From the NCBI RefSeq assembly GCF_000003605.2, contig NW_003109988.1, forward strand, positions 99,335 to 124,685: DNA of 25,351 nt. The letters run 5' to 3'. The notes under the pieces were generated by a model. That model saw nothing but the letters and a program-made list of their open reading frames with translations, was not told the DNA's origin and searched no databases. Each line of letters starts with the position of its first letter. Within the stretch, counting starts at the first letter, position 1. Shown here one piece after another: positions 537 through 25,351 of the stretch. The translations under genes and the position numbers were made by a program. Source of the DNA: Saccoglossus kowalevskii (lineage: Eukaryota; Hemichordata; Enteropneusta; Harrimaniidae).

Positions 537-631
537 AATGTTTGATAGATACCAGACTGCTAAAGAAAGGTCTAATGAAACCAACATGATAGATGTGCTA
601 TTCAAGCAATCTCCTTCTCAGGATAAGGAAA
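537..631 (+). CDS. VPS13C: VPS13A/C-like exon A (block 1)
   Basis: The acceptor TTTTTTACAG ends at 536 and the donor GTAAGT starts at 632. One leading base completes a codon from an exon outside the window; 31 codons follow, starting MFDRYQTAKERSNETNMIDV, and one base is left over. It corresponds to the stretch after the 'CxLDD' strand of VPS13C, where the human protein reads 'SSMIDISYKQ'; here it reads 'TNMIDVLFKQ'. The ATG at 538 is internal, not a start. Confidence 0.82.
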
Positions 632-3099
632 GTAAGTCTTTAGAATCCCACTAGATATCAAATGATAGTAATTAACATCAGTACATGGACTTGTTTTGTT
701 TAATGGAAATGGTACCCAGTGTTCTTGAATTGACTGACTCATTAGTTGAATCACTAGACAACATGATGAATTTTGTTTGACTTGTTACATTTGTAGCTCT
801 GCTGTTGACTTAGTCGAGCAGAGCTTATCATATGAGTTATTGTCCATCAGCATCCTCGTCGTTTTCCGTGTCAACTTTTTACTACAATTCTTGTTGCTTT
901 GATACTTGGTGTATATGTACCTTGGGCAGACCTGTCTTAGATTTGTTCATTTCATAATGATATCTTTAATTCTTTAATTTCGATGAATATTTTTTTTCAT
1001 TTTTGATAAAAAGTGATATTTTCGACTTCTTGTTGAAAACCGCGAGTCTGATTGCTTTGATATATATATATATATAGGTACTACATGTTGACCTCTCTCA
1101 GATTTGTTCATTTTGTTAAATGATATCTTCATTTCTTTAATTGAAACAGCAAAGCTATCTCAGCGGAGAGGCTGCTTGTTTAATTTTATTCAGGATTTGC
1201 TCTACTAGAAAAACATTTGAGAGACCACGTAAAACAAAAAAAATTGTGTTGCATTTCATTGAAATATGATTTATTTTAAATATAAGTAAAACACGCCTCT
1301 GTAGTTTTAGTGCATGTGCTACTTCCATAGCACACCATTTTCCATTTAAACATTCAGCCTTACATTTCTAGGTATAGTTTTTCATGTCTTGTTTTTCCTA
1401 CGACAGTCACTGTCAAAGTCAAGAAGATGTTCGTCTGCCTGTGTCTTGAGTATCTGTTAACAGTGGCTGACTTCTTCACCAAGGGACTACCAAAGAAAGA
1501 AGCAGAGGAGGAATCCCCGCTGCAGTCCAAAGCCGTGCAGAAAGTTGAAAAATCACCTGCTACCGCAGAGAAGAGTGAAGCACCGGTCGGAACTATTAGG
1601 ATTAAGCTGACTGTTGAAAACCCTGAGATTGTTCTTGTCGCTGATGCTACAGATCTGGAAACTGCTGCACTTGTACTGCAGGTAAGAGGACGCTGTTTGG
1701 TTTGCTATTCACCTTTTCTGTTAGTAACGCAATCTAGACGTCGATGAGTGAAAGTTTAAATCAATAACTGTGTTGGGTTGTGTAGTCGTTCGTCCACAGA
1801 CCGTATTCATTATTGCCCTCCCGCGATCTCATTGAGACATGCGAGAGCCACATAACTTGTTTTAACCCTCCCTTCTCAAACAGTGTCTCATTTATTATCA
1901 TCACGTTCTCTGCCCCGCTGATCAATGTAAACAGTGGACTCAATGGTGGCAGAACAAAACAATTTTCGTGGGGCGGCTTTTTCACTCTCATTTAGATCTC
2001 GGCCACCATTTGCAAATACGGTATATTAGAATACCGTATTTACTCCATTAGATGCACATCTCCAAATACTGCATTTGATATATATAACTGATTCAGAATC
2101 ATTAAAATACGACTTTTATACTTTGACCATAACAACACGTTCTGTAATTTACATGTGCTACTAGTAGAGCAAATGTTTTCGTAAACAATATTGAAGCTCA
2201 TTTTTGTGACAGAAATGAAATTATGGCAAGAAGGCGCAGTTCTTAACTTCAAGGACCACCTCATCGCATGATAACTGTTGAATGTTGGTAGTAGTACATG
2301 ACCACTATGAATATAACACATTATTATACAGTTACAGTTGTGCCGTAATTTTGTCATATTTTGATCCTACCCTATACGAAAATGCAAATTCTAAATATGG
2401 AATGATTGCGCGCGTAAGCTTCCTCTAATACTAAAAACAAACATGGATGCCAACAGGGTTTGACCCAAATCCACACAATGAAGTTTGCTGATTCTGTTGG
2501 ATTTTGGCATTCCCATGATGTATTCTTGGAAGGAAAAGATGTATAATAATACGAGAATACCTCAAAGTATGCACTCAGACAGTACGCCACGCATCCACCT
2601 CCGCTGTGCATCGGTCGATACTCCAGCTGGGTTGTCTTCGTGCATACTTTGAGGTATTCTCGTAATAACCTCCTAAATAAGTATAAAAACATCATGTTAA
2701 TAAAGGACACAAGAAGTAAATATTTTTGCCATAAGACTGTAAGTTGAACACTGTGATTTTAAATACACTGTATGATGTGGCTACTGCGATGTGTCACAAG
2801 AATTAAATGTGATACCCGCAGTTTTACATCCTCCATGTTTTGACACCACTCTTTCAACTGTGGTGACAATGATCCTAGCATTTAGACTTGTTTCTTCCCG
2901 CCTAGCCAACCACAGTGAACTCAGCCATCTTCTCATCATACTACAACTGCAGTTTATTTATTTTATTCACTTTCAGACTGAAATTGAACTTGGTATGACA
3001 ATAAGTCCAAGCAGGTTGACAGTGAGTGGTGCAGTCCACAATTTACAGATAATACACTGTCCATTTCTAAGGAGCAAGCGGCCTATGGACAGTTCAAAG
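537..3099 (+). CDS. VPS13C: VPS13A/C-like exon block 1 (three exons, partial)
   Basis: Three exons (537-631, 1407-1681, 2977-3099; 493 nt) join in one open frame with phases that fit: one leading base, then 1, then 0. The product matches the middle of the VPS13A/C lipid-transfer bridge, about residues 1,090-1,200 in VPS13A numbering. Telling strings are MFVCLCLEYLLTVADFF, NPEIVLVADATDLETAALVL and NLQIIHCPFL, the counterparts of the VPS13C segments around 'EFLMTVADFF', 'DPEVVFVA' and 'ACPFL'. In the family this part forms strands of repeating beta-groove units that carry glycerolipids between membranes at contact sites. In canonical order this block belongs after the exon at the right edge of the window, not before the exon at 4188. 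Whether it is part of a working gene, a duplicated fragment or an assembly error is open. Identification is firm; assignment to VPS13C rather than the VPS13A/C ancestor is tentative. Confidence 0.85.
632..1406. other. Intron A-B
   Basis: It contains a hairpin (AGCTCTGCT at 795-803 and AGCAGAGCT at 817-825), two diverged copies of a roughly 90-bp segment (about 893-985 and 1053-1145, each with TCAGATTTGTTCATTT-like text), and a TA run at 1062-1077. No exon was found. Confidence 0.6.
1407..1681 (+). CDS. VPS13C: VPS13A/C-like exon B (block 1)
   Basis: The exon runs from the acceptor CGACAG to the donor GTAAGA, 92 codons including the base carried from exon A. It opens with ITVKVKKMFVCLCLEYLL and TVADFFTKGLP, a strong VPS13A/C match. 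A charged Lys/Glu/Pro/Ser linker follows (about codons 32-58), then TIRIKLTVENPEIVLVADA and TDLETAALVLQ, the next bridge strands. The linker is likely a disordered loop off the groove. It ends in phase 0. Confidence 0.92.
1825..2002. mobile_element. MITE-like repeat, family 1 copy a
   Basis: It starts GATCTCATTGAGA and ends CTCTCATTTAGATC, imperfect inverted ends. A diverged copy lies at 23674-23877 with the shared order ACTTGTTTT, CCACTGATC-type text, CAGTGGA and AGATCTCGG. No target duplication is clear. Confidence 0.4.
2015..2040. repeat. 10-bp perfect inverted repeat
   Basis: AATACGGTAT and ATACCGTATT flank six bases. The text after it (CCGTATTTACTCCATTAGAT) looks like a transposon terminus, which is only a resemblance. 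Confidence 0.6.
2550..2664. repeat. Foldback with 25-bp perfect arms
   Basis: The arm at 2550-2574 (starting TACGAGAATACCTCAAAG) is perfectly complementary to 2640-2664, around a 65-nt loop. Weak matching continues outwards (CATGATGT at both outer sides), so the arms may be the core of a larger foldback element. Confidence 0.85.
2977..3099 (+). CDS. VPS13C: VPS13A/C-like exon C (block 1)
   Basis: The acceptor CACTTTCAG precedes 2977 and the donor GTGAGT starts at 3100; 41 whole codons in phase 0-0. It reads TEIELGMTISPSRLTVSGAV and then HNLQIIHCPFLRSKRP, matching the VPS13A/C strand pair that ends 'ACPFLxxKR'. In the family the next residues would be a 'TVLQPC' strand, which is not found in the following kilobase. 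Confidence 0.9.
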
Positions 3100-4187
3100 G
3101 TGAGTGAAGTCAAAGAAAATTCACTGTTCCAGTTGAAAACACTGATACACGATATAAATTACTGTAATTTCACAAACTCAGAAGGAGGTACATGTATGTG
3201 AGGATATGACCAGGTGATACATGTAGTTGCTCATAAAATAAGTGAGGTAAACTTTTACTAAGCCACTTGCACCTACATGTACATGTTTCACACCACAAAT
3301 TTTGAAAAAACAACCCTTCAAGTGTGCATGTATTTTAATGTGTTTTATTTGAGCCTTAGAGCACCAAATTTTAATTAGTCCCTGTTTGGACGATGTCCGA
3401 AAATGGGGACTTATAATTCGGTCTCCGTCCGTCTGTGCGTCCGTGCGGCCGTCCGGAGTCATATCTCAGAATCCCTTGGACCGATTCCGTTCATTCTTTG
3501 CATGTGCCTAGTACTTTATGTGGGACATATGCACATGCAATGGTTTAGCGATTCGATTCAAAATGGCCAACTGGCAGCCATCTTGTTTTTTAAAAATGTT
3601 GTATTTTGGACATGCTTTGTCAGTTGTCATTCAAACTTGGTACATAGATTATACATGTTAGAATACATGTCCATGACGATTTATTTCGCAATTGGATCAA
3701 AGATGGTCGACTGGCAGGCATCTTTTTTTTTTTTATCGCGGTATCTTGGACGTGCTCTGTCAGTTTTCATTCAAATTTGGCACATGCATGTACTTTATAC
3801 ATGTTAGGATGCATGTCCATGACAATTTGTTTCAAAATCTGATCAAGGATGGCCGATTGACAGCCATCTGACTTTTTGGCCTTACTACTATATTTCCACA
3901 ATTTATGTACCATTTTCATTCGTATTTGGCACATACATCATACATATGAGTGTGTTTCATAATCAGATCAAAGATGGCAGAATAACGACTGTTTTTATTT
4001 TTGGCCATATTACTACTACACGGAACACATGTTTTGATGTAAATAAACAATCTGTTGTATACGCCCCTTGGAATTCAAGTTTCAAGGACACGATTGCGAC
4101 AACCCCTCTGCTTTAATATGACGAGCACAAAGAGAACTTTCAAAAATTTAACGAGGACTGTGTCATTTTCAATGACTTGTTTTACAG
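3100..4187. other. Interval between exon C and exon D
   Basis: From 3100 to 3375 there is only AT-rich sequence; 3376-4180 is a dispersed repeat. No exon that would carry the reading frame from C to D was found. This is where the expected exon order breaks. Confidence 0.7.
3376..4180 (+). repeat. Long dispersed repeat with 140-bp tandem units, copy 1
   Basis: It opens with a hairpin (GTCCCTGTTT ... AAATGGGGAC, 3378-3410) and a TCCGTCCG tract, then units of about 140 bp containing ATGGCCAACTGGCAGCCATC (3565 and diverged repeats near 3705, 3849 and 3971), and a tail with GATGTAAATAAACAATCTGT and GAGCACAAAGAGAACTTT. The same layout occurs at 15558-16715. Reversed, the hairpin followed by CTAA recalls a Helitron 3' end, but no 5' end or insertion site was established. 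Confidence 0.8.
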
Positions 4188-4340
4188 GCTTCAAGCTGCT
4201 GCAATGTCTACTTTGGATACAATAAGGAACCAGAGTGCTACTGGTATGAACTATATGATTCAGTCTCGTAAAGTCACTGATATCAGCGTGGACATCAAAG
4301 GTTCCTACGCTATCATACCAGAGAATGGAATATATGACAG
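4188..4340 (+). CDS. VPS13C: VPS13A/C-like exon D (first of block 2)
   Basis: The acceptor TTGTTTTACAG ends at 4187 and the donor GTAGGT starts at 4341. The family frame needs one leading base, so the upstream exon must leave two bases. It reads LQAAAMSTLDTIRNQSATGM, NYMIQSRKVTDISVDIKGSY and AIIPENGIYD, matching the VPS13A/C helix plus strand 'TATGLxxIIExxKVLDL...SYxxVPQ'. The exon that should precede it ('YDAKTVNxxVEFF' in the family) is not in the window. Confidence 0.9.
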
Positions 4341-7300
4341 GTAGGTTTAAAAGTAATGGAACAGTCATCATAATATGGCTCGAAATAAAAAAAAAATATT
4401 TATTTAGCATTTAGAAACTATTATGGACCTGCCTGTTTGCAGTGAAAAAGAGGGAAATTGCTAATGAGTCTGTGGCTGTGATATGTCTCAGAGTATAGCC
4501 ACTGTATACTGTGAGTCGGAATAATTAACAAAGTTGGAAAGTTGACATTTATTGAACTATGAAACAGGAAAAATCAACATCGGCGGAACCACAACGTTCT
4601 CAAGTATCACATGACACAAAACTCAAGTTGTGATAGGTTGGTTCGAAACCAATCACTGATCGCAGTAATAATGTCATAGGTCAAATATGATATAATATTA
4701 GGAATACAAATAATCTAAACTAAACATCAAAGCTATTGCTGCACAGAAATAATACAGCAAATGGAATAATAGTTATAGAAAACATTTTGATGTCTAACTA
4801 GACAATTCAACTCAATAAGCAAACACACTTATGATTTGCATCCCGCCCCGACAGAGACCTGAATGTCCTCAGGCAGACGGGTAGGGAGAAGTGGTTAACC
4901 CCTCAGCTTCATTGTCAACTTTTGGTACCACCTACAAAATGATCTTGTACAGTCTGGTTCTCCCCATTTGATATATGGACAAAAATTGACAAAACTTTTT
5001 GATCAAAAAGTTAAAGCAATATCTAAACTGTTGATAAAATTGAGCAAAACTTTATACAAAATATGAAATTATTTTGAATTTTTTATGAGAATAATATCAG
5101 CCATTCATAGGGTTAAAGAGTCATTTGCCCAAATACATCTCCAATTAATTTTTAATGACTAGCTAATCAATAATTGGGAAGATAAACCCAATGTTTGCTC
5201 TTGTAAACTTGGTAAGTACGCCATGTTTACTGAAAGCTTCCACGCACAGCCAATTTCTTTGACCTTTTTTTTTTTTTTGGATCAAATTCTGCCTTGTATA
5301 TATGCTTTGACTCAACTGTGTCTTCTTGTGTTTTTCTCTTATATCAGTTCTGCATCTCTGATAATTGCCAACTTGGGTGATTTTAAAATGCAAAGCCTAC
5401 AAGCAGATAAATTGGCTGAGTGGAGACGACAGGTGAGTGAAAAACAAAAGCAAGCTAAGAGGTCTTACTATGAACACTTAGCTTGAATAAATTGATTAGT
5501 GTTTCAGTACAACTAAAATTTGAATCAGCCTGAAATTTCAGGGATGTGTAACTTCTGTAATATTGGAAGCAAATACTTGAAATCGTAATATGCATTGGTG
5601 GAATATCAGCTGCCATGACCGCAGTTTGAGTTAAAGTTGGATTTGACTAGATAACTGGCAAACATTTTGAATTGCAAATTGGGTTATACAGTTGAGGTTC
5701 ATAATTCAGATACTAGTTTGAGTATTGTAATTTTTTTTTAAATTTTTTTCATTTTTGCTAGAGATGTTGAATGACTTAGCAAAGTTTCAGGAAATCTGTA
5801 TGTAAAAATTATGACGTCTCCATCCTTAAAATGCGTTTAGATACATTGGTGTTAGGATAAAACTACTCTCTCACAATATCACCACACTTTGTGTTAGTGG
5901 GAGTTGTGCACCCTTGGTAATTTACCCTTGCCTGTAAACATAATGTTTTTTAATTAACACAAATTTTTGGTTTAAGGGTCATAGTCACCACATAGCACAT
6001 GTTCATATTCCCCCACACATGTAAACAATATACATGTGTATTACGTACATGTATATTGTATATGTTACATGTAGCCTATATCGAACATGGCGCAGTGCAA
6101 CGACTGTGATCATTAACTTATGTGAAGACTAACAAATATTCTGATTGTCTCGTATTTATTTCTTGTGAATTGTTGTTTTAATCATATGTCACCGTATTAT
6201 GTGCTTTCAATCTGTGTGCTTGCTTTTTAGCATGCTTGCCATGTTTAATTAACGCTAATATTTTGAAAGTGTATGTAACACTATTCAGAAGGAATTGTTC
6301 TACGCATTGTACTTGAAGTTGTGCATATACGCTTTACGCGCTTACTTTCTCAAAATATGTCGCGTCCTCTACAATCAGGACTGGCTGATCACATATTATT
6401 GTTAATAATTATATTTGCATTTATTTTCAGCATGCTATTATTTCTGATATCAGTATTTCTTATCTGAAAATAAATTTCACCAGGAAAAAAAATATCCTGC
6501 ATAATTTTTGGTATTGTTCATGTTAGAAACAATTATTTTTTGCTTCCCTACCCTGCGGCCAATCAGATGCAACAATTAATGGAGCAAGATCCCATCGCCT
6601 ATGTGTGTAAAAAAACAAGGCATTTTTCTTTTATATGATTGTTTTTGTAACCCTTTTACAAATTATTTGTAAAGTTTTTCTTAATTCATGAAATAACTTT
6701 TAACTATTAACATTTTCATGAATTTCTTCTCAAATATTTATACATCTGACTGTACGGACTTCACTTATAGTGCGCCCTCTATCAACAATTTTGACTACCA
6801 ATATAAATATTGGTAGAGGGCGCTGTATACTGCCAGTGTCAAAGCGCAGCCAATTGCCTCGTTATAATATTCCTTGTTATTAACTGTCTTATATAACAAC
6901 TAACCCCCCTACCTTATAATGTTTTATTTTATTTCCTATGTGTTCCTGTTAACTCCTTATTATGATAGCTTGCTATGGCTAAAGCTCTCAGAGAAGTACG
7001 ACCAATAAGTATAGTCACCTGCATGTCACCTTTTTATCTCCATCCTTTATTACAAACACTGTTCTTTTTATTCTTTCTAAATATTTATTCTATCGATCTC
7101 CACAATTTACGCATCAATAGTTTCTCTGTTGTCTTTTGTAACCAAAGTTCCATTGCTTTCTCCAGAATGTCCGTGACAATATTTTCATTGTTTTCTTATT
7201 GTTTATCCAATGTTCTCTCCATCTCTTGTAACTATGGTTACTGTTGTTTTCTCTAGAATGTCTGACTGAAGACACTAGGGAATACAGGGACATGCAACTG

Positions 7301-10300
7301 TGGTCTTTTCGTTGATGTAATGTCTCTTTGGATTCAAATGAGATTTTGAACATTCGACGTGCAATATTTCGTTCAAATCCACATCAAGTTGCATCACTGT
7401 TCACGCACGCACACATTTTCCTACAGATAAATTTCAGAACAAAAACGTGCCTGCACAACACATTAATAGTATGAAATAAACTAGTAGAATTTGAACGAGT
7501 GTAGTATATCTCAAAATTAGGGTAACAAAACGGCTTGGTCTCAGCATTTGGCAGGACAGTCACTTTGTGATTTGATGCAAGTAAATGATAAGACAATATT
7601 TTTATTCATTGATTTTCAAACAAAAGCATGTCTATGCCACAGTATGCGAATAGCAGTACCCAAACAGTGTATTCGAAAAATTTAGTTACATAAACTACAA
7701 GAAAAATGTGTGATTGGGAAAAACATAGAACACTTACATTATGGGACATGACACACCAAGACACATTGCATGGGACAACATCATTGATGTTTGCCACAGT
7801 TTCCTGTCCCTGTATTAATGTATGTAGTCTTTTATTGTTTTTTCATTGTTCTTTACATCTTTTGTAACCATGGTTTCATTGTTTTCTCTAGAATTTCTGT
7901 AACAATGATTTCTTTATTCTTTCCTTTGTTCCTTTCATAATTTGTTAATTCTTCCTCCTTGTAGCAGTCAACCATGGTATGTGGACTTTAATGAAATGTA
8001 ACAATTTCTGTTGTTTACCCATAATTCATTGGGAAATATGAAACTGCATACAGATCAACACTTATTTTTTCACAAACAAACCCATTCTATGCTCATGATG
8101 GAAATCTTTCACAGTTTATCTCAGAATTGCATATACAGCATTTATTGATGTATACATGTATGTAAAATCATGTCACAGGTTTCGTTTCTTTCTCACAATT
8201 GAATGTTCATATACAACTTAATAACTTTTACTTTAAATATTCTTAAATCAGTTTTCCATTTCAATTGTTCATTCATCAAGTTTGTGTAAAGAGAGATTTC
8301 TATTTTTGCTATTTTTACTAAATCAGCAACAAAAAACAAAAAACAAAAAAATGCTGAAAATTACTCTCCTCCACTCTCTCACACTGGTTTGCATTAGGTG
8401 CATGACAACCCAGTGAAAATAAATTATTCATATCAAACTCATTTGGTGATTTCAGCTAAAATAAATGTTATTTAATGAGAGAACTTTCTCCTAACGTTCT
8501 TAATCCTGATTGGTTACCAGTCCTCTTTCGACCTTTGACCCGAAAGTAATAACGGTTTATAATGTTACAAAATCGTTCTTTGCTAAATTCAAAGACGTAT
8601 TGATGAATGAAATTCTTTTTGACCAATTTCTTTCTCATGTATCTTTGTCATCATTATTCATTTTTTATTGTGATTTTTTATTTGATTTTTGCTAAAAGTT
8701 GTGTTTGATTCCTGCAGCAATGTGTACCAATAGAAGACTTACTGAATAAAGCATACGATAAATTCAGTTTAAAACTACAGAGTGTGCAGGTTATACTGGC
8801 CAAACCAGGTAATATTTCAAAGTTTTGACTTTAATGTATTATTTTCTTAAGTCATTCTTGGACTTGACCTTGAAGCAGATTTAATGCAGACATACTTGTG
8901 CGGCACAAACATGTAACGCTGTTACATAAAGCGACACAATCGCCACACGGCGTGTCGTAAAATTTTGTGAAAACAAATGACAAATTTAACATACGTTTTA
9001 TCAGAGGTACATTACTTGGGGTTTGCAACTACGGTGACATGATACCAAGATCCCGTCTCGCTCTCGCATAAGCGTTGCAACTCAGAAAAATTTGAATGCG
9101 CATGCTCGAGGTAACTAGGATACTGGGATGTCTAGGTGCTCACAAAATGACAGATTATGATAACTATATTTTCTGTACATTTTCGATGTATTACATTTTT
9201 TCACTATGAATGTGGTAATACATGTTTTATTATTTTATTACAAACCGCCTATCTCATGTCAGAAGGTTGTAGCATCAGTCTCGCTATCTACAAGATGAGA
9301 CTTGAATGGGATCTTGACATGATGTCACCATACAGTACTATGCACGTTGCAAACCCCAAGTAATGTACCTCTGGTTATATACTTCACATAGAATCTATGT
9401 TGAATACGATTACTTTTAAATTTCTCTAACTGTTCATATTCTTTGTCAACGATGCAGGTGAAGATTGGAAGGCAGCCATATTGGAGCCTAAATCGGCCTT
9501 ACATGTCTTGCAACCGACTGAATTGAGTGTGGAACTTCATAAATGTATGCTGACCAATGACACTCGAGTACCACAGTAAGTGATTTCACGTATATTGAGT
9601 TTGATTAGTGGTTTGTGAAACAATCAATTTAGTTACATTCACACTACTGAGAAAAATGTGGGAAAAAAGATACTTTCACCTCGCATTAAGCCTGTTCACT
9701 TTAACCTTTTCACTACCAGATCGCTCTTTTCATCACAAATTCACAATATACCGGTATTCCCATTTACAGTCTGCACTTTCCTTCCGAACATTGGGACAAA
9801 AATAGCTGAAAATTTACACAAATTGTGTCTGTTGGCTCCAAAATTATGTTCATTTCCAGAAATATTAAAGAATAAAAGAAAAAAGTGATGAAAAATTTGG
9901 GAGAGAAAGTCTGGTGGTAAAAAGGTTAGGAATAATGAAGGATGAACACGCATAACAAAACATGATTCTGCGAGTATCTGCTTGCAATAAACCCAATGCT
10001 AGTTTACATTGTAGCATAAAAATTGACCAAAGACCAAATAATACTAGTATTTCACATGAACATTTTGTAAGAAAACATTTCTGTATCAATTTGATGTGAT
10101 TTGATTGCATTACAGAAATAAGTACTTTATTTTTCATAGATAGACAAATAACAATGTCATTAAGTATGTTATTGATCAAAATTCTGCTTGATGAGAGCAA
10201 CTAATTTTTGATGAAATAGCTACATACTATTTTTAGTAGCGAATTTAATTAACATACTCTTAATTTAATTAACAGACTCTTAATTTAATTAACAGACTCT

Positions 10301-16300: not shown

Positions 16301-19300
16301 TGTTTTTTTGTTTTTTTTATGCGGTAACTTGGACGTGCTCTGTCAGTTTTCATTCAAATTTGGCACATACATGTACTTTATACATGTTAGGATGCATGTC
16401 CATGACAATTTGTTTCAAAATCTGGTCATGGATGGCCGATTGACAGCCATCTGACTTTTTGGCCTTACTACTATATTTCCACAATTTATGTACCATTTTC
16501 ATTCGTATTTGGCACAGCTGTTTTATTTTTGGCCATATTACTACTACATGGAACATGTGTTTTGATGTAAATAAACAATCTGTTGTTTACGCCACTTGGA
16601 ACTCAAGTTTCAAGGACACGCTCGCGACAACCCGTCCGCTTTAATATGGCGAGCACAAAGAGAACTTTGAAAAATTTAATGGGTACTGTGTCATTTTCAA
16701 TGACTTGTGTTTTAATGAAAGTGTTTTTAGATCATGTCATAGATATACTGATGTATTCAAAATGCCTGAGTTGTGATCATTTTGTTCTAATTAATGCTGT
16801 TCCAGAGCAATGCAATGTATCTCTCAATATGGACATTAGATGATCACATACAAGATGACTGAATGTCATTCATTTTAATGTTAAATATCATTATAATCAA
16901 GCATCTGCTTCTGGATCCATATCTCTAACATGTTTATGTTCCAACTATATTACTATAAACAAATCTATATATCATAAGTTTGATAACTAACAGATGTTAT
17001 TGTTAACTGCAGAGGAAACTGCAACTACACTGTTGTGAACAACTGCAACAGTGGTATGAGTGGTAGAGTAAGATTACATGTGTAAATGTGCACTACTAAA
17101 GTGAACAGCTTGTCTCTTTTTTTTCAGGCGGATAAAAAGAGCCCAGAATTTTATACGACATACGAGAAAACAGAACAAAGTATAATAGTCTCATTTACAG
17201 CGCTCGAAGTCGTAGCTCATTTATCGGCCATCTTGGGACTGCTAGATTTTGTAGATACTGTAGTGCCGAAAAGTGACGAAGTCAGCAAAGAACCAGATGT
17301 TGTGGATGATGAGGGTTACATAAGCGATGATGAAAAAAAACAAAAACGTAAGTCACGTTATGCCATATAAAATCAAATGCTTCTCCAACCTAACTTCTCT
17401 TGTCTGTTTGATATCTATTAATAGCATTAAGTTCATTGACCTTTTGAGTGCTATTGACAACTCTTGGCACCATCTACTAAATGATTTTGTATAGTCTGCT
17501 TCTGCTCACATGAGATGGTGATTGAAATTGACAAACAATGTTGGAAACTTATGCTCCAAAATGGTGATAAAATTTACTGAGCATTTTACAAAATGTGAAA
17601 ATATTTGCTCTGAATTTTGGGCTGAAAAAAATATTCATCACTCAAAGGATTACTGAAGTGGAAATTTGTCATTTTGCTTCATAACAAAGTTAATTTCAGT
17701 GAAAATATAAAAATTATAATTTATGATGGACTTAAATTTATGATGATTTAAAATGGTTGCCTGGTGGTCATTTTGTTTTAACAAATTTCTAATATTTAAA
17801 CAAGTATATCTGACTTAGATATACATCATGTTGCACATATGCATGTTTATTCATTTGACAATTTAATTCAAGATGGGCGAATGGCGGTTGTTTTAATGTT
17901 AAAAATTCATCACAATCGAGCATTTCTGCCATTTTGAATTTCGGTCATGCATAGACAGATTTTGTACAAATTATGTACCAGTATGTACATTGAACTTCAT
18001 GTTATCTTTCTATAGAAAAATTAGTCATAAATCGCATGACAATGTTCATTAGTTTATTATGTACAATCATATCTCATGGTACAATGAAATAACATTATTT
18101 TGTGTGTTACAGGTATGCTTTTTGAGAAACGTGTCCTAATATTTCTAATATTTGCTATTTTTAGAACAATTCCATATAACACAATGTTAAAGAAAAAATT
18201 GCATTTGTTGACATATTTTAAAACCCAGATATTTATAAATAATTCTGAACAACAAAAAGTACTCTATCATTAATAATATGTGATTTTTTTCAGCCTATGT
18301 CACCATGTTAGATTTTGAGATATTGCATAATTGCCATAGGAACCTGTGAAAAAAGTGTTATAATAGTATCAAAATGGTGAATTTCCACTAAAGTACAGCC
18401 ATCAATTTCTCGAAAAAAAAGCTGGTAACCTACAACTTTTTCAAGGTCAATATCCTTATATTGCCTTGCAATTGGAGTATAATTTATTGCAAAATGAATA
18501 AATTCTGGGTTTTTTAATTTATGGGTAGACTTCTACCTTAATGCACTCACTTTATTTGTCAAATCAGACCAACTGGTAGCCTTTTTGTTTTATTATGTGC
18601 AGTTTTGAAGCCATATTTGTGTTCAAACTTTTCATATTTCTTAAACTTAAGAACTTACAGGGACTATGTAATGCAAAAGAAGAAAGACTTATCTTGTTAC
18701 ATGTATGTGGAGTTTGGAACCACAACATTGAAAACACAATCATGACAACTATTGCCCTAGGGTAATGTTCAAATAAATAAAATAAAATAAAAAAAAAACA
18801 TTGTTATGTTCGTAAAATGCACAGTGATGGAGTCTACAAAATTTAGCCATAATATAAATCAGTCATTAAATCACATAATCATGATTTTTTTTCTTCTGAT
18901 TTTTAATAGGTCAGCGTTACACACGTCCAGAACCAAGGTCAGAGATAGATGTCAAAGTCATGGCTGATTTAGACACAGTGTCTTTAGTTATATGCAGTGA
19001 CGCTGGAATAGTCGCAACAGCCAAGGTTAACGGTGAGTCAAGTTCATAGTCATAGTTAAGTAGGCTCGTCTATTCTTGGTATTTTTAGCTTCGTTTCCTA
19101 CTATATAATGTTTACAACATCCTGCGTGTTTGAATTTCCTGTAAACAAACAGTGTGGTTATGCTTGTTGTACATGGTGCGATGAGTCCCATATCGAACAG
19201 GATGCTACATAACAACCACCACCACCTTTAAATGTATTTAAAATCTGGATGGTTTGATTGTACATTTGTATCAATGTAAATTAGAATGCATTCATTCAAG

Positions 19301-22294
19301 TTATGACCAGACATTCAGTATAAGAAAAAACGATTTTCCCATATTTGGTCCAGATAAACTATTTTCAGACATCTTTAGAAACTACATTCAGAAGTCTTTA
19401 TTTCCAGAATTAGTGAATTTCTGATGGATTGAAAAACCTTTAAATTGGTAAATTGGCTTCCTGATCTGCCTATCATTCTGATCATTGTTTTCCTTGGAAG
19501 ACATTTTCAGAGAAGTGGTTATTCTGCATAGAAATACAACATATTAATTACTTATGATGACAATTGCTATGGTAATTTGATTATTGATCACTTAACAGAG
19601 TACGGGGGAGGGGGCCGTACGACATTGTGCTGTGACAAAATGACAATGTTTGGTCCAAAATTGGAATTTTAAAAAATCCAGAAAAGATTGCCTAGAAAAC
19701 ATTACTGTTTCATCATGCACCTAAAGTCAATAGGTGGTGTAGAAAAGATCAACAATGTCTCTCAGGCATGCTGAGAATTCCTCTAAGGGAATTTTTTCCA
19801 ATTTAATGTAGGGATGGGGGGGGGGGGTTCTGAGTACAACTGTGACAGGAACAATGTTTACCAGTAGTGAAAAAGGTTGAGGAATTTGCTGTCTGTGTAT
19901 AATTTGTAAATTCAACTGCTGGTTATATCCAGGTTTGAAAGCTGGGGTTATGGTGCAGAGACATCAGACAAGAATAGAGGCTTCCTTGAAGGATATCGCT
20001 ATACATGATCCAATGCCTAATGCTGCTTACCCCAAGGTACTGTCTCTATATTTAAAAAGATCCACCCTTCACTACATGCCTTCATTTTCAGGCAGATTCT
20101 GATATGTACATGGTTCCAGAATAGGAGAATTCTGGGTATTTTGCAGCCCAATGAAGCATGTATATAATGTTTGTATAGAATTCTTGTTCAAGATTTTGTT
20201 CACCAGTGATGTTAGGGCTTGCTTTGAAGACTAAATTTCATGTATTTATCTGAGAGACATTGTAATACAATTATAGCAGCCGGGAAATAGAGGTTTGTGC
20301 TCTTGCACGAGAAGAACATTTGGCCATTTGAACATTGGGTGCAAAATTCTCATATTCAGCCATTATTATATAATGCCGGGTCTATCTATCTAATTTGCTT
20401 CAAACTCAAAATAAAATAAAATATTGTATGATAATGAGCCAGAGGTATGACCTACTTATTAAATAGTTGTTGAATCAATCAACTTTGTTTATCTTATCAG
20501 ATTCTCTCCATCAAAGACGCTGAAGTATTTCATCTGAATATTGTAGCTCATAACAGCGCCACCGTTGGAGAATGGTACTCTGATATGAGCTCTGTGGATA
20601 CGGAAATAGAACTCAACTTAGGGAGAATTGACATTGTGTTCCTCAATAAATTTGTCATGGAAATACTGGTAAATACATTTTTTGTTTATTATTCATTTTC
20701 ATGCAGTAATATTTTCGAAATGTGTAGAGTTCTGATAACAATATTCATAGATGCCTGATGTTTGCTCAACTTGAGATCTGAAGTAATGAGACAGTCATGT
20801 GACTTTATTTAAACTACTGCACATTGTGTTTGAAAATCTTTGATTTATATAAAGGCAGCCAATCTGAGATCTAATCAATTTCTCTCTTAAAAAAAAAAAA
20901 AAAAAAAAAAATGTCTACATATATACATTTGTAAGGAAATGTTTTCAGAACCACAGAACTATGGGGCAGGGTGAGTGGGATGGGGGTGTCATAAATGTAT
21001 GACATATGCACCAAGAGTTGAATGCAACTGCATGACATTGATTTGGTTTACCCTTATTTTTTTCGCAATAGACTTTAATGCAAAAGGCCTTGTAGATCTC
21101 ATAGAGAGTTCCCTTCAGATAGTGTTCTATTCTCTCTTGTTGTCATGGAGACATCATAGCCACAGGTTATTTGACTGACTATGCCATAGGGTGACAATAC
21201 TAGTCTTTGGTTGAAATACTTCAAAAAAGTTGAACAATGCTCCTCTAATTTTTTTTTTCTTAGATTGCATTCCCTTTTTGTATTAAATGCAGAACACCTC
21301 TAACTGATTATTGGGATCAACATGAGAAATGATACAAATCTGTTGGCACGACCACAAATCCTGAAATATCATAGCACTGAAGCTAGCTTGCACTGAAGGC
21401 AGTGGTGTTTTATCACCAAATCAAACACATTTACATTTACATATTATAGGACGTCTTCTGAATTTGATTTCATTATTCTGTTGAATTTCTCATGATCTGT
21501 ACTAAACCCAAGGTCTTTAGATTCTTACAGTGGACTTTGAGAGTTTTTCTGCAGATCAATCAAAGTTGCATTAAAAAAAAGTTCCTTTTCACCACCAGCT
21601 CCCTTTTTTCATCACAAATTTAATTTATGTTTATAGTCTGCCTTTTCCTTCAGAAGATTATCACCAAAATAGGCAAATGTTTTGAGTAAAAAACTGAAAA
21701 TTGACTCAAATTTTGTCTGTTGGCTCCAAAATTAGCGTTCATTTCCAGAAATATTGAAGAATATGAGAAAAAAGTGCAGACAAATTTGGGTTGAGAAAGT
21801 CGGGTGATAGGAAGGGAAGGTTAATGCCATGAGTGATTGTTTAAAATTACAAAATTTCTAGCCTTAAATTCAATGTTACATTTTACAGGATTTTATCGAT
21901 CATTTCCAAGCGGCGAAAGATGCAGTCAAAGATGCCAGTGCGTCTGCAGCAAGTACTGCTGCTGCCAAAGTGCAGAACTTACACGAACGAAGCGCTAGAG
22001 TTGTACTCGACATAACCATTCAGGCACCGCTGATTATCATACCACAGAATTCGCTGTCATTGAATGCCATCATTGCTGATCTTGGCGTGCTGACAGTCAG
22101 TAATAGTTTTAGTATTGCGGGTGAGAACACTGATAAGTACATTCCACCTATTGTAGACACAATGATAGTAAAACTCAGCAGTGTCAAGTTAGGCAGGTGA
22201 GCTATTGCGTTAACTAGCTTAGAATTCAAATTTCTTACTTTCAGTTTCAGTGCTACTCAAATTAATAAATTGATCATCATTATTATTATTATTA

Positions 22295-22335
<41 letters not shown>

Positions 22336-25300
22336 TTTGTAGAGTCAGAATGGAAGAAAATCGGATCAAGTCGGAAGTCAGTATATTGGAACCAGTTGAT
22401 ATCATTATTGAAATTAAACGAAATTTAGCTGCATCCTGGTACCATCAAATACCAGATATAGACATTGGTGGGAAAATACCCGCTATGAAGGTATGAAGTC
22501 AATAAATGGAATCTTAAATGGCTAAGAATTTGTGCATCATAGTTATTACCATTGACAATTAACCTGTCAAACCGCTGCCTATATGATATAGCCTTTGTGT
22601 TCTTCGTCTAACTTATTGTCTCAAGAGGGGATGTTATCTTGGCACCTTGTTCTATGATGTTTGCCAAACTTCATTATTTATATTAGACAGGTTGATTTCA
22701 TGTGTACATCATCGACTTAAAGCCTCATCAAATAGCCAATATGAATAGGAAAAAAATGGTTCAGCTTAGGCATCCAATTCACCAGGTCCGCCAAAACGTG
22801 CATTAATCAAGTGATCTTCTTCCAATCTTCCAAGGTCGCTTTAGGACAGGATGACTTCACCATGGTGATGGCAACATTGGATGAGAATCTTCAAGAAGGT
22901 CAGAAAGAGAAACCAAAGAAGGCACCTACTGAGCCAACAGTCAAACCAACTGATGAGAAAAAGAGAAGAGGTGTGTTTGCTGCTTCTATCTTTTCTCCAA
23001 TAATGAGTATTTACCAACTAAAGAAAGATTCTAAATTTAAAGAATATGTACTGTGGGTGACTTTTTGCTGCAATTTATTTATTTTTTTCTGAAAATCGTA
23101 CTTAAAAAACACAGGATTTTACATACAAATGTACTGAATAATATTGGAAAATATTATAAATCATTGGATTTCATCCAGTATTTCATGTATGTAAATGTGT
23201 CGAAATGAGCGTAGTGCGAGTGGTTAGTGCTAGTAGCACTAATCCGAAAATGTACTAGATCTAGCGCTAAAAAGGCACGAGTTCTAGCGCTAAAATGGCA
23301 CTAGATCTAGCGCTAAAATGGCACTAGATCTAGGGGTAAAATGTGCACAGTGCGAGTGGCATTGTTATTGCATTGTCAACGACGTCGAATAATAGGAGGG
23401 GCATCCACTTTCATATGCAAACTACAAACAGTATAAAACTTTGGCAATATGCTAGAGATGTTCATAATAATACTTTCTATATGGTCTGCCGTAAATTCGC
23501 CCGTCCGAAATATAATTGGTTGACATATGGAATGTAGTTTTACTGATTTTTCACCTTCTACAGAAAAATTCCAAATGAATATAAAATACTCCACAGTATA
23601 AAAATGTTAACTGCAGTTTTTGTCCAGGTCTCTCCTTTCATCTGTGTTTGCAAAACATACCTTGGACACCAATGATCTTATTGAGAGAGAGAGAGAGAGC
23701 TACAAGACTTGTTTTTATCCATCAAATACTATTCTATCCTTTCTCGTCAACACTTTCACTGCTCCACTGATCTATGTAACAATATACGTATTTAATACAG
23801 TGGATGGGAGATGTCGAAACATTATTTAAATGTCAAAAACAAGTTCTGTAATTCTCTCACTTTAAATGAGATCTCGGTGACCATTCACATCAAAGGTCTT
23901 TTTTTCAGCTTCTTTAACAATTGATTGCCTATTTGAATGGAAATAAATGGGAATTTGTCATATTTGAATAGGTTATTTTCCATTCACTACAAGATCTCAC
24001 CTCTACTGCAAAAATCAAAGTGCCGATTTTTGAGATGGAATGTTGCATAGAGATACCTTTACTTCATCAAAATTGTGTATGGTACTTTATTAAGTAAGGT
24101 ATTTTATTAAGCGTGGCATTTGTCAAATCCCACATGATGACATCACTGCAATGCTATGACCTTTGTTTATCCTGATTTCACGCATAACGTAAATAAGCAT
24201 AAGCTTAATTAAAATTTTCAGAATCGCATTTTAAGAAATTCTGGAATGCTCTCAGTTTTATTTAATGTTTTTTTTTCTTTTCAGGCTCAACTAAAGGAAC
24301 AACTATCATTGAAATAACACCAAAATCTAAAGCAGTGTGGACCAAGCTAATATTCAATTTTTACATTGAAAGTATTTCAGCTGCTTTGTTTACTGGTAAA
24401 ACTGACCTGGTATGTTGTAAATTTCTTGGTGTTGTAACATTTCATAGTTTGCCCCATGCTTGTATGGGAAAACTGAGTTGAATTTTAATGACTTAGTATG
24501 TAATAAATGCAAGTTTATTGTTCTCAGTATATACAAATGTATATAGTTTGTTTATAATAACAAAATTTTTTTTGAGTGGTGGTGGAGTATTGCGAAGTGT
24601 ATTAGTGCCATGTGTGAATTAGTCTGTAATATTTATAGTATTGATCTAGAATGAGATTTAAAACCATTGTATGCCTCGTTTCTAACATTCAAAAAAACAA
24701 AATTATTTTTTTGCCTTCTAAAATTTTGCCCTATCACAACATTGTGCATTTTTTTTTTTTAATTCTAATTTCTGCATTAACAAAGAACACATACCATTGA
24801 TGAATGAATATAAACGATGCACACTATTATAGGAAGTGACACAATGAATTGTCAGTGAGAGTCTTAGCCTTAAATATTTGACATGATTTCGCCCAGGGTC
24901 TCCGGTAATTTGTCATCTTGTGCTATAATCCTGGAGGTTTGATTGACAAAACTAGATTTTTAATAGTTGGCGCCCTCTGCAGACCTGGACGCAACCCAGT
25001 TGCCATATTTTCCCACTTGCAAGTGATTTTATGTACGTTGGTATATATCATATGTTTGCTTTCAGTGTCCACATTTCGGCAAAGGCTGATACAAATTGAT
25101 AATATTGAGCTAATAATTGATAATAAAGAAATAGTTGTAGCTACTGTCATTTTTATTGTGAGCAAACATTATTGAAAACACTCATTCTATTCGACACAAA
25201 TTAAGCTTAAATCTGCTATGTTTTTTTTAATTTTATCGCAGATGTCCGGTATTGGAATTGTTGATAGAAATCCAGACAGTGGTCTCAGCAAAGTAGATTT

Positions 25301-25351
25301 GTGTATGGTGGGTGTGGATGGTACCATGTGGACGGATGATTCTATGCATGC
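4188..25351 (+). CDS. VPS13C: VPS13A/C-like exon block 2 (seventeen exons, partial)
   Basis: Seventeen exons (2,511 nt, about 837 codons) join with consistent phases from 4188 to the right edge. The product covers roughly VPS13A residues 600-1,080, the central part of the bridge-like lipid-transfer rod that works at ER contacts with endolysosomes, lipid droplets or mitochondria. Matches run in family order: the 'TATGL.YIIE' helix (here SATGMNYMIQSRKV), the 'AYDKF' strand, 'LPLxxxRISDQK' (here LPQLNVQISDQK), the acidic FFAT region, 'LGTEATMRTFDL' (here LGTEVTIRTFDI), 'YxDMSxVD', 'DFIDHFQAAKDAV', 'APLIIIPQNS' and 'NLAASWYHQIP'. Wording such as ALGQDDFTMVM and NAIIADLGV is closer to VPS13C than VPS13A, yet the internal duplication found in human VPS13C is absent. 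Both ends are missing: no chorein domain, no VAB or PH-like region. No stop or frameshift was found in any exon. Confidence 0.92.
4341..5347. other. Intron D-E
   Basis: AT-rich, with a MITE-like repeat at 4895-5116. No exon was found. Confidence 0.6.
4895..5116. mobile_element. MITE-like repeat, family 2 copy a
   Basis: The ends are inverted: TTAACCCCTCAG at the left and ATAGGGTTAA at the right. The inside carries GTCAACTTTTGGTACCACCT and ATGATCTTGTACAGTCTG, both mirrored in the copy at 17438-17651. TTAA at the two ends could be the target site. Confidence 0.55.
5348..5432 (+). CDS. VPS13C: VPS13A/C-like exon E
   Basis: The acceptor TTATATCAG precedes it and the donor GTGAGT follows. With two carried bases it gives 29 codons, SSASLIIANLGDFKMQSLQ and then a charged tail ending EWRRQ. 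It matches the VPS13 strand 'SxLLILDFGxFxxxS'. It ends in phase 0. Confidence 0.9.
6772..6823. repeat. Compact foldback with GCGCCCTCTA arms
   Basis: GCGCCCTCTA (6772-6781) and TAGAGGGCGC (6814-6823) are perfect arms, with an inner CCAATA/TATTGG stem. A related GGCGCCCTCTGCAG occurs near 24969. It is probably the remains of a small transposon. Confidence 0.6.
6969..6995 (+). CDS. Possible 27-nt microexon
   Basis: Between TTATGATAG and GTACGA lie nine codons, LAMAKALRE, in phase 0-0, which would fit between exons E and F. Family alignment needs no extra residues here, so it would be optional at best. Confidence 0.12.
7281..7816. mobile_element. MITE candidate, 536 bp, 23-bp terminal inverted repeats
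   Basis: The left end begins AATACAGGGACATGCAACTG and the right end is its complement (7794-7816), 21 of 23 bases matching. No transposase frame is present inside. The element splits a region of diverged direct repeats (ATGGTT..TTTTCTCTAGAAT on both sides). No clear target duplication. Confidence 0.65.
8718..8808 (+). CDS. VPS13C: VPS13A/C-like exon F
   Basis: The acceptor CCTGCAG and donor GTAATA bound 30 codons plus one base. It reads QCVPIEDLLNKAYDKF and SLKLQSVQVILAKP, matching 'LEEIMDKAYDKFDVEIKNVQLL' of VPS13C. The intron before it is the longest of block 2 (3.3 kb). Confidence 0.92.
8809..9457. other. Intron F-G
   Basis: More than half of it is a hAT-like MITE (9002-9373). The rest is AT-rich with nothing recognisable. 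Confidence 0.6.
9002..9373. mobile_element. hAT-like MITE, 372 bp, 28-bp perfect terminal repeats
   Basis: The ends 9002-9029 and 9346-9373 are perfect inverted repeats starting CAGAGGTACATTACTTGGGG. Similarity continues inwards (GGTGACAT, AAGATCCC on both sides). CAG-type ends are usual for hAT elements; the expected 8-bp target duplication is not clear (CGTTTTAT and GTTATATA). No transposase is encoded. Confidence 0.75.
9458..9575 (+). CDS. VPS13C: VPS13A/C-like exon G
   Basis: The acceptor GATGCAG and donor GTAAGT bound 39 codons plus two bases. It reads GEDWKAAILEPKSALHVLQP and TELSVELHKCMLTNDTRVP, matching the VPS13 strand pair 'ENWKK...STMHILQPMDIHVELAKAM...DIRMA'. Confidence 0.93.
9702..9928. 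mobile_element. MITE candidate, family 3 copy a
   Basis: The 19-bp ends TAACCTTTTCACTACCAGA and, reversed, TAACCTTTTTACCACCAGA match at 17 of 19. Outer TA on both sides fits a Tc1/mariner-type TA target. The inside has TGTCTGTTGGCTCCAAAATT and CATTTCCAGAAATATT, shared with 21581-21823. Confidence 0.7.
10241..10309. repeat. 20-bp tandem repeat, about 3.4 copies
   Basis: The unit TAATTTAATTAACAGACTCT is repeated with two exact copies (10261-10300), one variant before and a partial after. Confidence 0.9.
10710..10854 (+). CDS. VPS13C: VPS13A/C-like exon H
   Basis: The acceptor TTGTTACAG and donor GTAAGT bound 49 codons with the carried bases. It reads VRIVGELPQLNVQISDQKIH and ELIKIADSIPLPK, the family strand-helix 'FKVSGxLPLxxxRISDQKxxxxxxLxxSIPLP', then a Ser/Pro linker (SDSPSPSASQ). 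It ends in phase 0. Confidence 0.94.
10855..11582. other. Intron H-I
   Basis: Very AT-rich with long A and T runs and a (TA)n tract near 11303-11323. Nothing else was recognised. Confidence 0.6.
11583..11813 (+). CDS. VPS13C: VPS13A/C-like exon I, short form
   Basis: The acceptor TTGTTTCTAG precedes it; the first donor is GTACGT at 11814. It has 77 codons in phase 0-0. After a linker comes an acidic tract (ESDSDTESTVCDD), then DFFTPAQSEED, and a final strand LTQLELNFEIKE that continues into the next exon as VALNV. This matches VPS13C, where an acidic FFAT region is followed by 'LLLKFEIKEV'. FFAT motifs recruit VPS13A/C to the ER through VAP proteins. A second donor at 12024 extends the exon. 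Confidence 0.9.
11706..11726 (+). other. Phospho-FFAT-like motif (DFFTPAQ)
   Basis: Codons 42-48 of exon I read DFFTPAQ after an acidic run. The fourth position is Thr instead of Asp, as in phospho-FFAT motifs such as the one in STARD3, where phosphorylation allows VAP binding. The equivalent place in VPS13A/C has a conventional FFAT. The assignment rests on motif and position only. Confidence 0.45.
11814..12023 (+). CDS. VPS13C: In-frame extension of exon I (alternative donor, second FFAT-like unit)
   Basis: The frame stays open past the first donor for exactly 70 codons to a second donor, GTATGT at 12024, in the same phase. The extension repeats the layout of the short form: acidic tract (DSDDDDNDD), an FFAT-like core EFYDACK, a basic linker, and a strand LVSLYLKLNITE that would also continue into VALNV. 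Distance from core to strand (about 45 residues) resembles VPS13A/C better than the short form does. It could be the usual form, an alternative form, or an old duplication. RNA evidence would decide; coding nature is inferred from the open frame and motif. Confidence 0.65.
11868..11888 (+). other. Conventional FFAT-like motif (EFYDACK)
   Basis: The core EFYDACK follows DSDDDDNDD, the usual acidic flank. VPS13A has EFFDAPC and VPS13C EYFDAED in the corresponding region, both reported to bind the VAP MSP domain. It is only included when the second donor at 12024 is used. Confidence 0.6.
12024..14195. other. Intron I-J
   Basis: It holds a LINE remnant (about 12760-12970), ATTT-rich simple sequence near 13060-13085 and AT-rich spacer. 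No VPS13 exon was found. Confidence 0.6.
12760..12970 (+). pseudogene. LINE reverse-transcriptase C-terminal remnant (tentative)
   Basis: One frame reads LQHECRPLYSYSSERKTLYD and on to EMDKTEKFKTIINVSDK, the style of the Cys-x-x-Pro-Leu-Tyr...ER...EKF tail that ends many non-LTR retrotransposon ORF2 proteins. The next piece (HLLKTLIQYIDNANLKRSM, then stop) is in another frame, so a frameshift lies near 12905. A/T-rich sequence follows. This is recalled family style, not a search result. Confidence 0.35.
14196..14352 (+). CDS. VPS13C: VPS13A/C-like exon J
   Basis: A long pyrimidine tract and CTTAAG precede it; the donor is GTAATA. It has 52 codons plus one base: VALNVSRFKDN, then LIGIAVQNLGTEVTIRTFDI and NVAAFVGSITVEHKHF. 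It matches the family strand set 'VILEFTKQ...VFNVTQLGTEATMRTFDLTVVSYLKKISLDYH'. Confidence 0.94.
14353..14655 (+). other. Intron J-K, 303 nt and stop-free in frame
   Basis: The intron length is a multiple of three and the VPS13 frame passes through it with no stop, giving 101 Cys-rich codons if retained. Family alignment joins exon J directly to K, so it is normally an intron. Confidence 0.7.
14656..14744 (+). CDS. VPS13C: VPS13A/C-like exon K
   Basis: The acceptor CATTTAG and donor GTAGAA bound 30 codons with the carried base. It reads APGGAGPLYLVSTPTSFKQE and DNLLSVHYKK, matching 'GSKRKPLHLISSS...LLKVEYIKA'. It ends in phase 0, followed by a 2.4-kb repeat-filled intron. Confidence 0.92.
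14941..15557 (+). repeat. Long dispersed repeat, diverged copy 3
   Basis: It starts TAGTCACTGTTCGG ... AAAACGAGGAC, the same hairpin start as copies 1 and 2 but decayed, then units with ATGGCCAAATGGTGACCATT and ATGGTCGAATGGTAGCCATT and an AATCATCAAAA segment. A CATGTCATAGATATAC segment at 15329 recurs at 16734, beyond copy 2, so copy 2 may sit inside this older copy. Confidence 0.65.
15558..16715 (+). repeat. Long dispersed repeat, copy 2 (best preserved)
   Basis: The hairpin GTCCCCGTT ... AACGGGGAC is at 15560-15592, then TCCGTCCG-type text, two 140-bp units (GACTGGCAGCC at 15739, GACTGGCTGCC at 15879), a second TCCGT tract near 16000-16050, further units, and the same tail as copy 1. Text such as CATGTGCCTAGTACCTTATG is nearly identical between the copies, so they are fairly young. 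Confidence 0.8.
17128..17347 (+). CDS. VPS13C: VPS13A/C-like exon L
   Basis: The acceptor TTTTTTTTCAG and donor GTAAGT bound 73 codons plus one base. It reads ADKKSPEFYTTYEKTEQSII and VSFTALEVVAHLSAILGLLD, matching 'ADKNGPSFQTAFGKTEQTVKVAFSSLNLLL' of VPS13C, then an acidic linker (DVVDDEGYISDDEKKQK) that likely forms a loop. Confidence 0.94.
17348..18909. other. Intron L-M
   Basis: It contains family 2 copy b (17438-17651) and a remnant of the long repeat (about 17700-17990, with TTCAAGATGGGCGAATGGCG and AGCATTTCTGCC). The rest is AT-rich. Confidence 0.6.
17438..17651. mobile_element. MITE-like repeat, family 2 copy b
   Basis: The ends are ACCTTTTGAGTG and CACTCAAAGGAT, inverted. The inside GACAACTCTTGGCACCATCT and ATGATTTTGTATAGTCTG matches the copy at 4895. 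Confidence 0.55.
18910..19032 (+). CDS. VPS13C: VPS13A/C-like exon M
   Basis: The acceptor TTTTAATAG and donor GTGAGT bound 41 codons plus one base. After a short basic start it reads EIDVKVMADLDTVSLVICSD and AGIVATAKVN, matching 'DFRLFAKLNAFCVIVCNEKNNIAEIKI'. Confidence 0.92.
19033..19932. other. Intron M-N
   Basis: It has a small GTACGG/CCGTAC inverted repeat around a G-rich core (19600-19620) and a run of G near 19815-19828. No exon was found. Confidence 0.55.
19933..20036 (+). CDS. VPS13C: VPS13A/C-like exon N
   Basis: The acceptor TATATCCAG and donor GTACTG bound 35 codons: GLKAGVMVQRHQTRIEASLK and DIAIHDPMPNAAYPK. It matches 'GLDSSLSLQSRKQSLFARLENIIVTDVDP' of VPS13C. It ends in phase 0. 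Confidence 0.92.
20037..20500. other. Intron N-O
   Basis: AT-rich; nothing recognised. Confidence 0.6.
20501..20668 (+). CDS. VPS13C: VPS13A/C-like exon O
   Basis: The acceptor CTTATCAG and donor GTAAAT bound 56 whole codons. It reads ILSIKDAEVFHLNIVAHNSA, then EWYSDMSSVDTEIELNLG and RIDIVFLNKFVMEIL. It matches 'AVSIMGNEVFRFNL...LYTDMSKVDGVLSLNVGCIQIVYLHKFLMSLL'. Confidence 0.95.
20669..21888. other. Intron O-P
   Basis: It contains a run of about 22 A (20889-20910) and family 3 copy b. No exon was found. Confidence 0.6.
21581..21823. mobile_element. MITE candidate, family 3 copy b
   Basis: It shares TTTTCATCACAAATT, TGTCTGTTGGCTCCAAAATT and CATTTCCAGAAATATT with 9702-9928, in the same order and orientation. 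Its ends are more decayed (CCTTTTCACCACCAG left, GGGAAGGTTA right). Confidence 0.65.
21889..22196 (+). CDS. VPS13C: VPS13A/C-like exon P
   Basis: This is the longest exon here, 102 codons plus two bases, between TTTTACAG and GTGAGC. It opens DFIDHFQAAKDAVKDASASA, an Ala-rich helix matching 'FLNNFQTAKESLSAATAQAAE', then NLHERSARVVLDITIQAPLI, IIPQNSLSLNAIIADLGVLT and a strand ending PPIVDTMIVKLSSVKLG. 'NAIIADLG' is closer to VPS13C ('NAVIADLG') than to VPS13A. Confidence 0.97.
22279..22334. repeat. (ATT)n microsatellite at a splice acceptor
   Basis: About 18 ATT units with one interruption (ATTGTT) end only 8 bases before the exon Q start. The host intron is short (146 nt), so the repeat makes up much of its 3' part. 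Confidence 0.9.
22343..22490 (+). CDS. VPS13C: VPS13A/C-like exon Q
   Basis: An (ATT)n tract and TTTTTGTAG precede it; the donor is GTATGA. It has 50 codons with the carried bases: VRMEENRIKSEVSILEPVDI, IIEIKRNLAASWYHQIPDID and IGGKIPAMK. It matches 'LLHPINLEFLVNRNLAASWYHKVPVVEIKGHLDSM' of VPS13C. Confidence 0.95.
22491..22834. other. Intron Q-R
   Basis: 344 nt, AT-rich; nothing recognised. Confidence 0.6.
22835..22970 (+). CDS. VPS13C: VPS13A/C-like exon R
   Basis: The acceptor CTTCCAAG and donor GTGTGT bound 45 codons plus one base. It reads VALGQDDFTMVMATLDENLQ, matching 'VALSQDDLTVLMKILLENL' of VPS13C, then a Lys/Pro/Glu linker ending DEKKRR that is probably a disordered loop. Confidence 0.93.
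23253..23344. repeat. 23-bp minisatellite, four copies
   Basis: The unit is CACTAGATCTAGCGCTAAAA plus TGG, at 23253, 23276, 23299 and 23322. Each copy holds the palindromes CTAGATCTAG or a variant and AGCGCT. The array lies between two direct copies of AGTGCGAGTGG (23213 and 23349). Confidence 0.9.
23674..23877. mobile_element. MITE-like repeat, family 1 copy b
   Basis: It is a diverged counterpart of 1825-2002 in the same orientation, starting GATCTTATTGAGAGAG and ending AATGAGATCTCGG. An inner GA run is expanded. Confidence 0.4.
24285..24409 (+). CDS. VPS13C: VPS13A/C-like exon S
   Basis: The acceptor TTCTTTTCAG and donor GTATGT bound 42 codons with the carried base. It reads GSTKGTTIIEITPKSKAVWT and KLIFNFYIESISAALFTGKT. 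It matches 'QIVSLQFDFHFESLSIILYNND' of VPS13C. It ends in phase 0. Confidence 0.9.
24410..25241. other. Intron S-T
   Basis: AT-rich, with a GGCGCCCTCTGCAG motif near 24969 of the kind seen at small-transposon ends. Opposed reading frames at 24918-25175 have no recognisable product. Confidence 0.55.
25242..25351 (+). CDS. VPS13C: VPS13A/C-like exon T (cut by window edge)
   Basis: The acceptor TTTTATCGCAG precedes 25242; the exon runs off the window after 36 codons plus two bases. It reads MSGIGIVDRNPDSGLSKVDL and CMVGVDGTMWTDDSMH, matching 'FQLGELRLHLMASSGKMFKDGSMNVSVKL' of VPS13C. The next family segment ('CTLDD...', then 'MID...') is the one just before exon A at the left end of the window. 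Confidence 0.9.
   Translation, partial: MSGIGIVDRNPDSGLSKVDLCMVGVDGTMWTDDSMH

Follow-up and report, generated by a model that had tools for sequence, protein, structure and literature searches.

Permuted VPS13 exon order in a draft-genome contig, probably an artefact of circularisation through a repeat

VPS13 exons in the window and on the contig

The window analysed here, the whole stretch of 25,351 nucleotides, corresponds to positions 99335-124685 of contig C455 in a 572-Mb genome and contains exons of a VPS13A/C-type gene, all on the forward strand. Exons A (537-631), B (1407-1681), and C (2977-3099), at the left of the window, were placed with a spliced model and alignment to the human proteins; exon C leaves 0 nt, as does an alternative earlier donor after position 3021. 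To the right of exon C, beyond a copy of an interspersed repeat that we call repeat R, sixteen exons of the spliced model join into a single open frame: D (4188-4340, with a phase 1 start), E (5348-5432), F (8718-8808), G (9458-9575), H (10710-10854), I (11583-12023), J (14196-14352), K (14656-14744), L (17128-17347), M (18910-19032), N (19933-20036), O (20501-20668), P (21889-22196, also identified by the family search), Q (22343-22490), R (22835-22970, an exon distinct from repeat R), and S (24285-24409). The last exon, T, begins at 25242 and is cut by the right edge of the window. An extra exon at 25066-25157, between S and T, was considered and dropped, since S already joins T in phase and the homologous stretch is accounted for by exon T. 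Three of the six short window peptides that were searched singly gave no VPS13 match. The introns also contain an ATT microsatellite at 22270-22340, immediately 5' of exon Q, a short array of 23-base tandem repeats at 23247-23338, and two copies of another dispersed repeat at 9800-9901 and 21688-21790, which are about 89% alike.

The first-pass annotation of this DNA described the VPS13 exons as permuted, and this holds: exons A to C (537-3099) lie to the left of exons D to T, yet in human VPS13A and VPS13C the segment that they encode comes after that of exon T. Exons A to C align to human VPS13C from residue 2019 to about 2170 (2167 in a separate alignment; the first query extended into exon D), and the match of exon D starts at residue 661. 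The offset was larger than proposed, with exon D lying 929 codons ahead of exon A instead of about 500 residues. The order D to T followed by A to C is colinear with both human proteins and scores 797.1 bits against VPS13C when window bases 1-66 are left out. When the exons are read as a circle from exon D, the frame stays open for 1093 codons and is in phase at all 19 exon junctions (19/19), the passage from C to D being the sole frame break; since the homologues guided the manual choice of exon ends, the phase agreement is not a blind result. The same circular order gives VPS13_N (177.1 bits) and VPS13_M (273 bits), both above their cut-offs and in the canonical order.

Runs of N abut both edges of the window, at 57591-99334 and 124686-171057 of the contig (~88 kb). 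Beyond these runs, the contig carries further parts of a VPS13 gene on the same strand. Upstream, a first exon at 48951-49052 encodes the chorein start MVFES..., covers VPS13_N positions 1-34, and matches human VPS13C residues 1-45 with 41.3 bits; it is the only VPS13 feature among the matches listed for the left flank at 48.8-57.6 kb. Downstream, the C-terminal exons at 171951-172160 and 174357-174480 give a VPS13_C score of 110.2 bits (cut-off 21). The VAB domain profile (PF25036) gave 0 matches, with the expected region being N and the control likewise giving 0 in 14 genomes. Just past the right-hand run of N, the sequence at 171058-171300 of the contig, with its letters read by eye, resembles the end of a reverse-transcriptase-type element.

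Distant paralogues aside, the readable genome yielded a second copy neither of exons A to C (6 of 6 candidates scored) nor of exons D to S (20 of 20 candidates scored), the ~88 kb of flanking sequence being N. An argument from gene density, that a second copy could lie within the flanks, was set aside as too weak. The same genome holds at least three other VPS13-family loci, on contigs C1597, C1341, and C4612; such counts are lower bounds, as the family searches scored the best 35 of 72 and the best 54 of 74 candidates. The N-terminal exon of C4612 lies within one 321-codon open frame, and we take C4612 to resemble VPS13B and C1341 to resemble VPS13D. C1597 was considered as the other allele of the present gene and rejected as a distant paralogue, with 30% identity over part of exons A to C and 38% over part of exon P. 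C2731 gave a weak match to exons A to C (31%, E 1.3). Repeats at 799-1190 of the window are 77-91% identical to C1597 sequence near its VPS13 paralogue.

One exon across the two window edges

The two edges of the window are two halves of one exon. The 5' half of exon T occupies 25242-25351, where it is cut by the window edge, and it resumes at base 1, on the same strand, with the 3' half at 1-66. Window bases 1-66 are coding (HVELGNIVLDDIRPGRNTGIY) and are followed by two bases that fit the phase of exon A and then by the donor GTACAC. When base 25351 is joined to base 1, a single in-frame open exon of 176 nt results, MSGIGIVDRNPDSGLSKVDLCMVGVDGTMWTDDSMHAHVELGNIVLDDIRPGRNTGIY, which leaves 2 nt over and is in phase with exon A. 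The first-pass annotation had thus been right that exon T is succeeded by exon A but had ended exon T at 25351, and the rest of the exon lies in the first 66 bases. Adding the 22 residues from these bases raises the score against VPS13C from 797.1 to 834.5 bits and that against VPS13A (9yfw) from 262.9 to 287.2 bits. No gap falls across the join in the alignment to human VPS13A or in that to human VPS13C. The same stretch lies in one open frame in the C1597 paralogue, and the distance from GLS to DIR, counted by hand, is 37 residues in both. If the join is displaced by 1 or 2 nt in either direction, 10 or 20 stops appear, but the frame is still kept with 3 nt lost or duplicated there; hence, the exact join is placed by the gap-free alignments and not by the frame alone. 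The two contig ends were also searched for a common overlap, of the kind that some assemblers would leave on a circle, and none was found.

The continuity of the edges bears on two of the alternative readings. If the window straddled the boundary between two VPS13A/C genes in tandem, or that of an internal duplication that is functional and extends the lipid bridge, this would agree with the left-to-right exon order and with flanks of which ~88 kb is N. However, a linear duplication gives no reason to expect both edges at the same base of the two copies, as would then be required; the passage from C to D is out of frame, and the contig was found to carry a single first exon and a single set of VPS13 C-terminal exons. 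Such an arrangement, one of the three options raised in the first-pass annotation, is very improbable. It is also conceivable that the genome copy used here, rather than the original assembly, was rotated in handling, which would equally make the window edges abut. The genome search, however, shows the same exon order in contig C455, and rotating a linear piece at random would be unlikely to put a full-length copy of repeat R at the join, so that we give this explanation almost no weight.

Repeat R between exons C and D

The stretch between exons C and D contains a full-length copy of repeat R, of ~806 bp, at 3375-4180 on the forward strand, delimited by its conserved ends, and we regard it as the probable site of a false join. 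The repeat is interspersed and of high copy number. In a genome search in which the best 40 of 1931 first-look candidates were scored, 26 of 44 non-self rows spanned the query from position 18 or before to position 820 or beyond at 91-94% identity, and these 26 rows showed net length differences of at most 27 nt. Comparison of the window with itself revealed a second, rearranged copy on the same strand in the intron between exons K and L (15557-16711). The two copies in this gene have an exact 87-mer in common, which makes a merging of R copies by overlap plausible.

Repeat R contains internal tandem repeats of ~140 bp and a hairpin near its 3' end, features that we take to be reminiscent of Helentron-type elements, and it is possibly a non-autonomous Helentron, a tentative assignment. 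It resembles the non-autonomous Helentron/HINE elements described in passages of a report on the oyster (PMC7492417) and of one on Drosophila DINE-1 (PMC4067079) in being short, interspersed, and present in high copy number. Repeat R gives no consistent target-site duplication at any fixed boundary over the 11 copies compared.

The conserved end of the repeat and the start of exon D are 7 nt apart, and an insertion at such a position would be unusual. On its two sides, the copy between C and D carries a matching five-base motif, TTTTA, as the target-site duplication of one insertion would leave; if R were such a single insertion, then C and D would be true neighbours. When the flanks of 11 R copies were compared with free offsets, a match of at least 5 bases was obtained in 4 of 11 own pairs, the copy between C and D included, versus 12 of 110 mispaired flanks. 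The flank matching thus leans weakly against a merged R at this junction and is ambiguous.

Splicing directly from exon C to exon D loses the frame; with the earlier donor in exon C, which leaves the same phase, the shifted exon D runs for 27 codons before a stop. In-frame splicing from C to D through another acceptor was considered and rejected: the frame-restoring acceptors inside repeat R all follow GAG and appear poor by eye. Given this loss of frame, a functional duplication is unlikely.

Origin of the exon order and comparison with known systems

The window probably represents, at roughly three chances in four, a contig that was circularly permuted during assembly and that comes from the middle of one ordinary VPS13A/C-type gene, in which case the scrambled exon order is an artefact. 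The true order would be R-D-E-...-S-T-A-B-C-R, with R copies that precede exon D and follow exon C, respectively. These two direct copies would have been merged by the assembler, such that its path closed into a circle, which would then have been opened at an arbitrary position within exon T. We infer both the merger of the two R copies and the lack of an extra copy of the segment. A circle of this kind, opened at an arbitrary position, would account for an exon that is broken off at one edge and resumed at the other and, at the inner join, for an intact R together with the loss of frame. The edges of the window do abut within one exon, C to D is the only out-of-phase junction, R is full-length at that place, and runs of N lie at the edges. 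On the other side of the balance stand the TTTTA on both sides of R, the ends without overlap, the frame kept by a 3-nt shift of the join, and the N flanks, which might be something other than assembly gaps. An assembly misjoin had been among the options offered in the first-pass annotation, and the evidence favours that option, in the specific form of a permuted contig.

A biological circle would give the same picture in a different manner. Rolling-circle-type repeat copies might have helped to duplicate the VPS13A/C bridge segment in tandem, very recently and with almost identical copies, or to form an extrachromosomal circle with that segment; taken together, these possibilities are unlikely. 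In the case of a real duplication, two or more tandem copies of the segment from D to C, perhaps arising via recombination between direct R copies, would have been collapsed into one circular contig. Identical copies would yield the identical contig, with a full-length R at the C to D join and N in the flanks, and the short match flanking R fits, weakly, a real C-R-D neighbourhood. The splice from C to D is nevertheless out of frame, with its early stop in exon D, the readable genome has yielded no second copy, and the data are explained without one; we therefore hold this version to be improbable. The partial tandem duplication of the first-pass annotation is likewise not needed, although a collapsed identical copy would look alike. 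In the case of extrachromosomal DNA, a circle with the D to C segment and a single R, sequenced alongside the chromosome, would look exactly as observed. The contig is, however, scaffolded between the first exon of the gene and its C-terminal exons, as a chromosomal copy would be, and no other copy turned up in the readable genome, which leaves such a circle highly doubtful.

If the window is a permuted contig, as we favor, the VPS13 gene itself most likely looks ordinary, and any gene model based on this scaffold would render VPS13 incorrectly or in separate pieces. The case is a warning that, in draft assemblies, exons may appear permuted through a contig circularised at a repeat, for which there is a simple test, namely whether the last base continues into the first.

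Compared with the bridge-like lipid transfer proteins VPS13A and VPS13C, the gene matches in its first exon, middle, and C-terminal regions, and its order is canonical once read as a circle. Human VPS13C has an internal duplication of ~500 residues, and the window lacks it: one stretch aligns both to VPS13C residues 872-1388 and to residues 1414-2167, a statement that holds for the window only, the flanks being N. Unrolled, the window thus has a predicted layout that is VPS13A-like. Passages of PMC7613979 describe VPS13C and VPS13D as enlarged by internal duplications of about 500 residues, and flies as having one VPS13 that is related to VPS13A and VPS13C and has the domain structure of VPS13A; the single central stretch of the window is in line with this account. 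With respect to the artefact, the window resembles the cases treated in passages of PMC9516828, where assembly errors, false duplications among them, change gene structures, in that the anatomy of the gene would have been changed by assembly and not by evolution. In contrast to those false duplications, the alteration here would be a rotation through a repeat, and no extra copy is seen.
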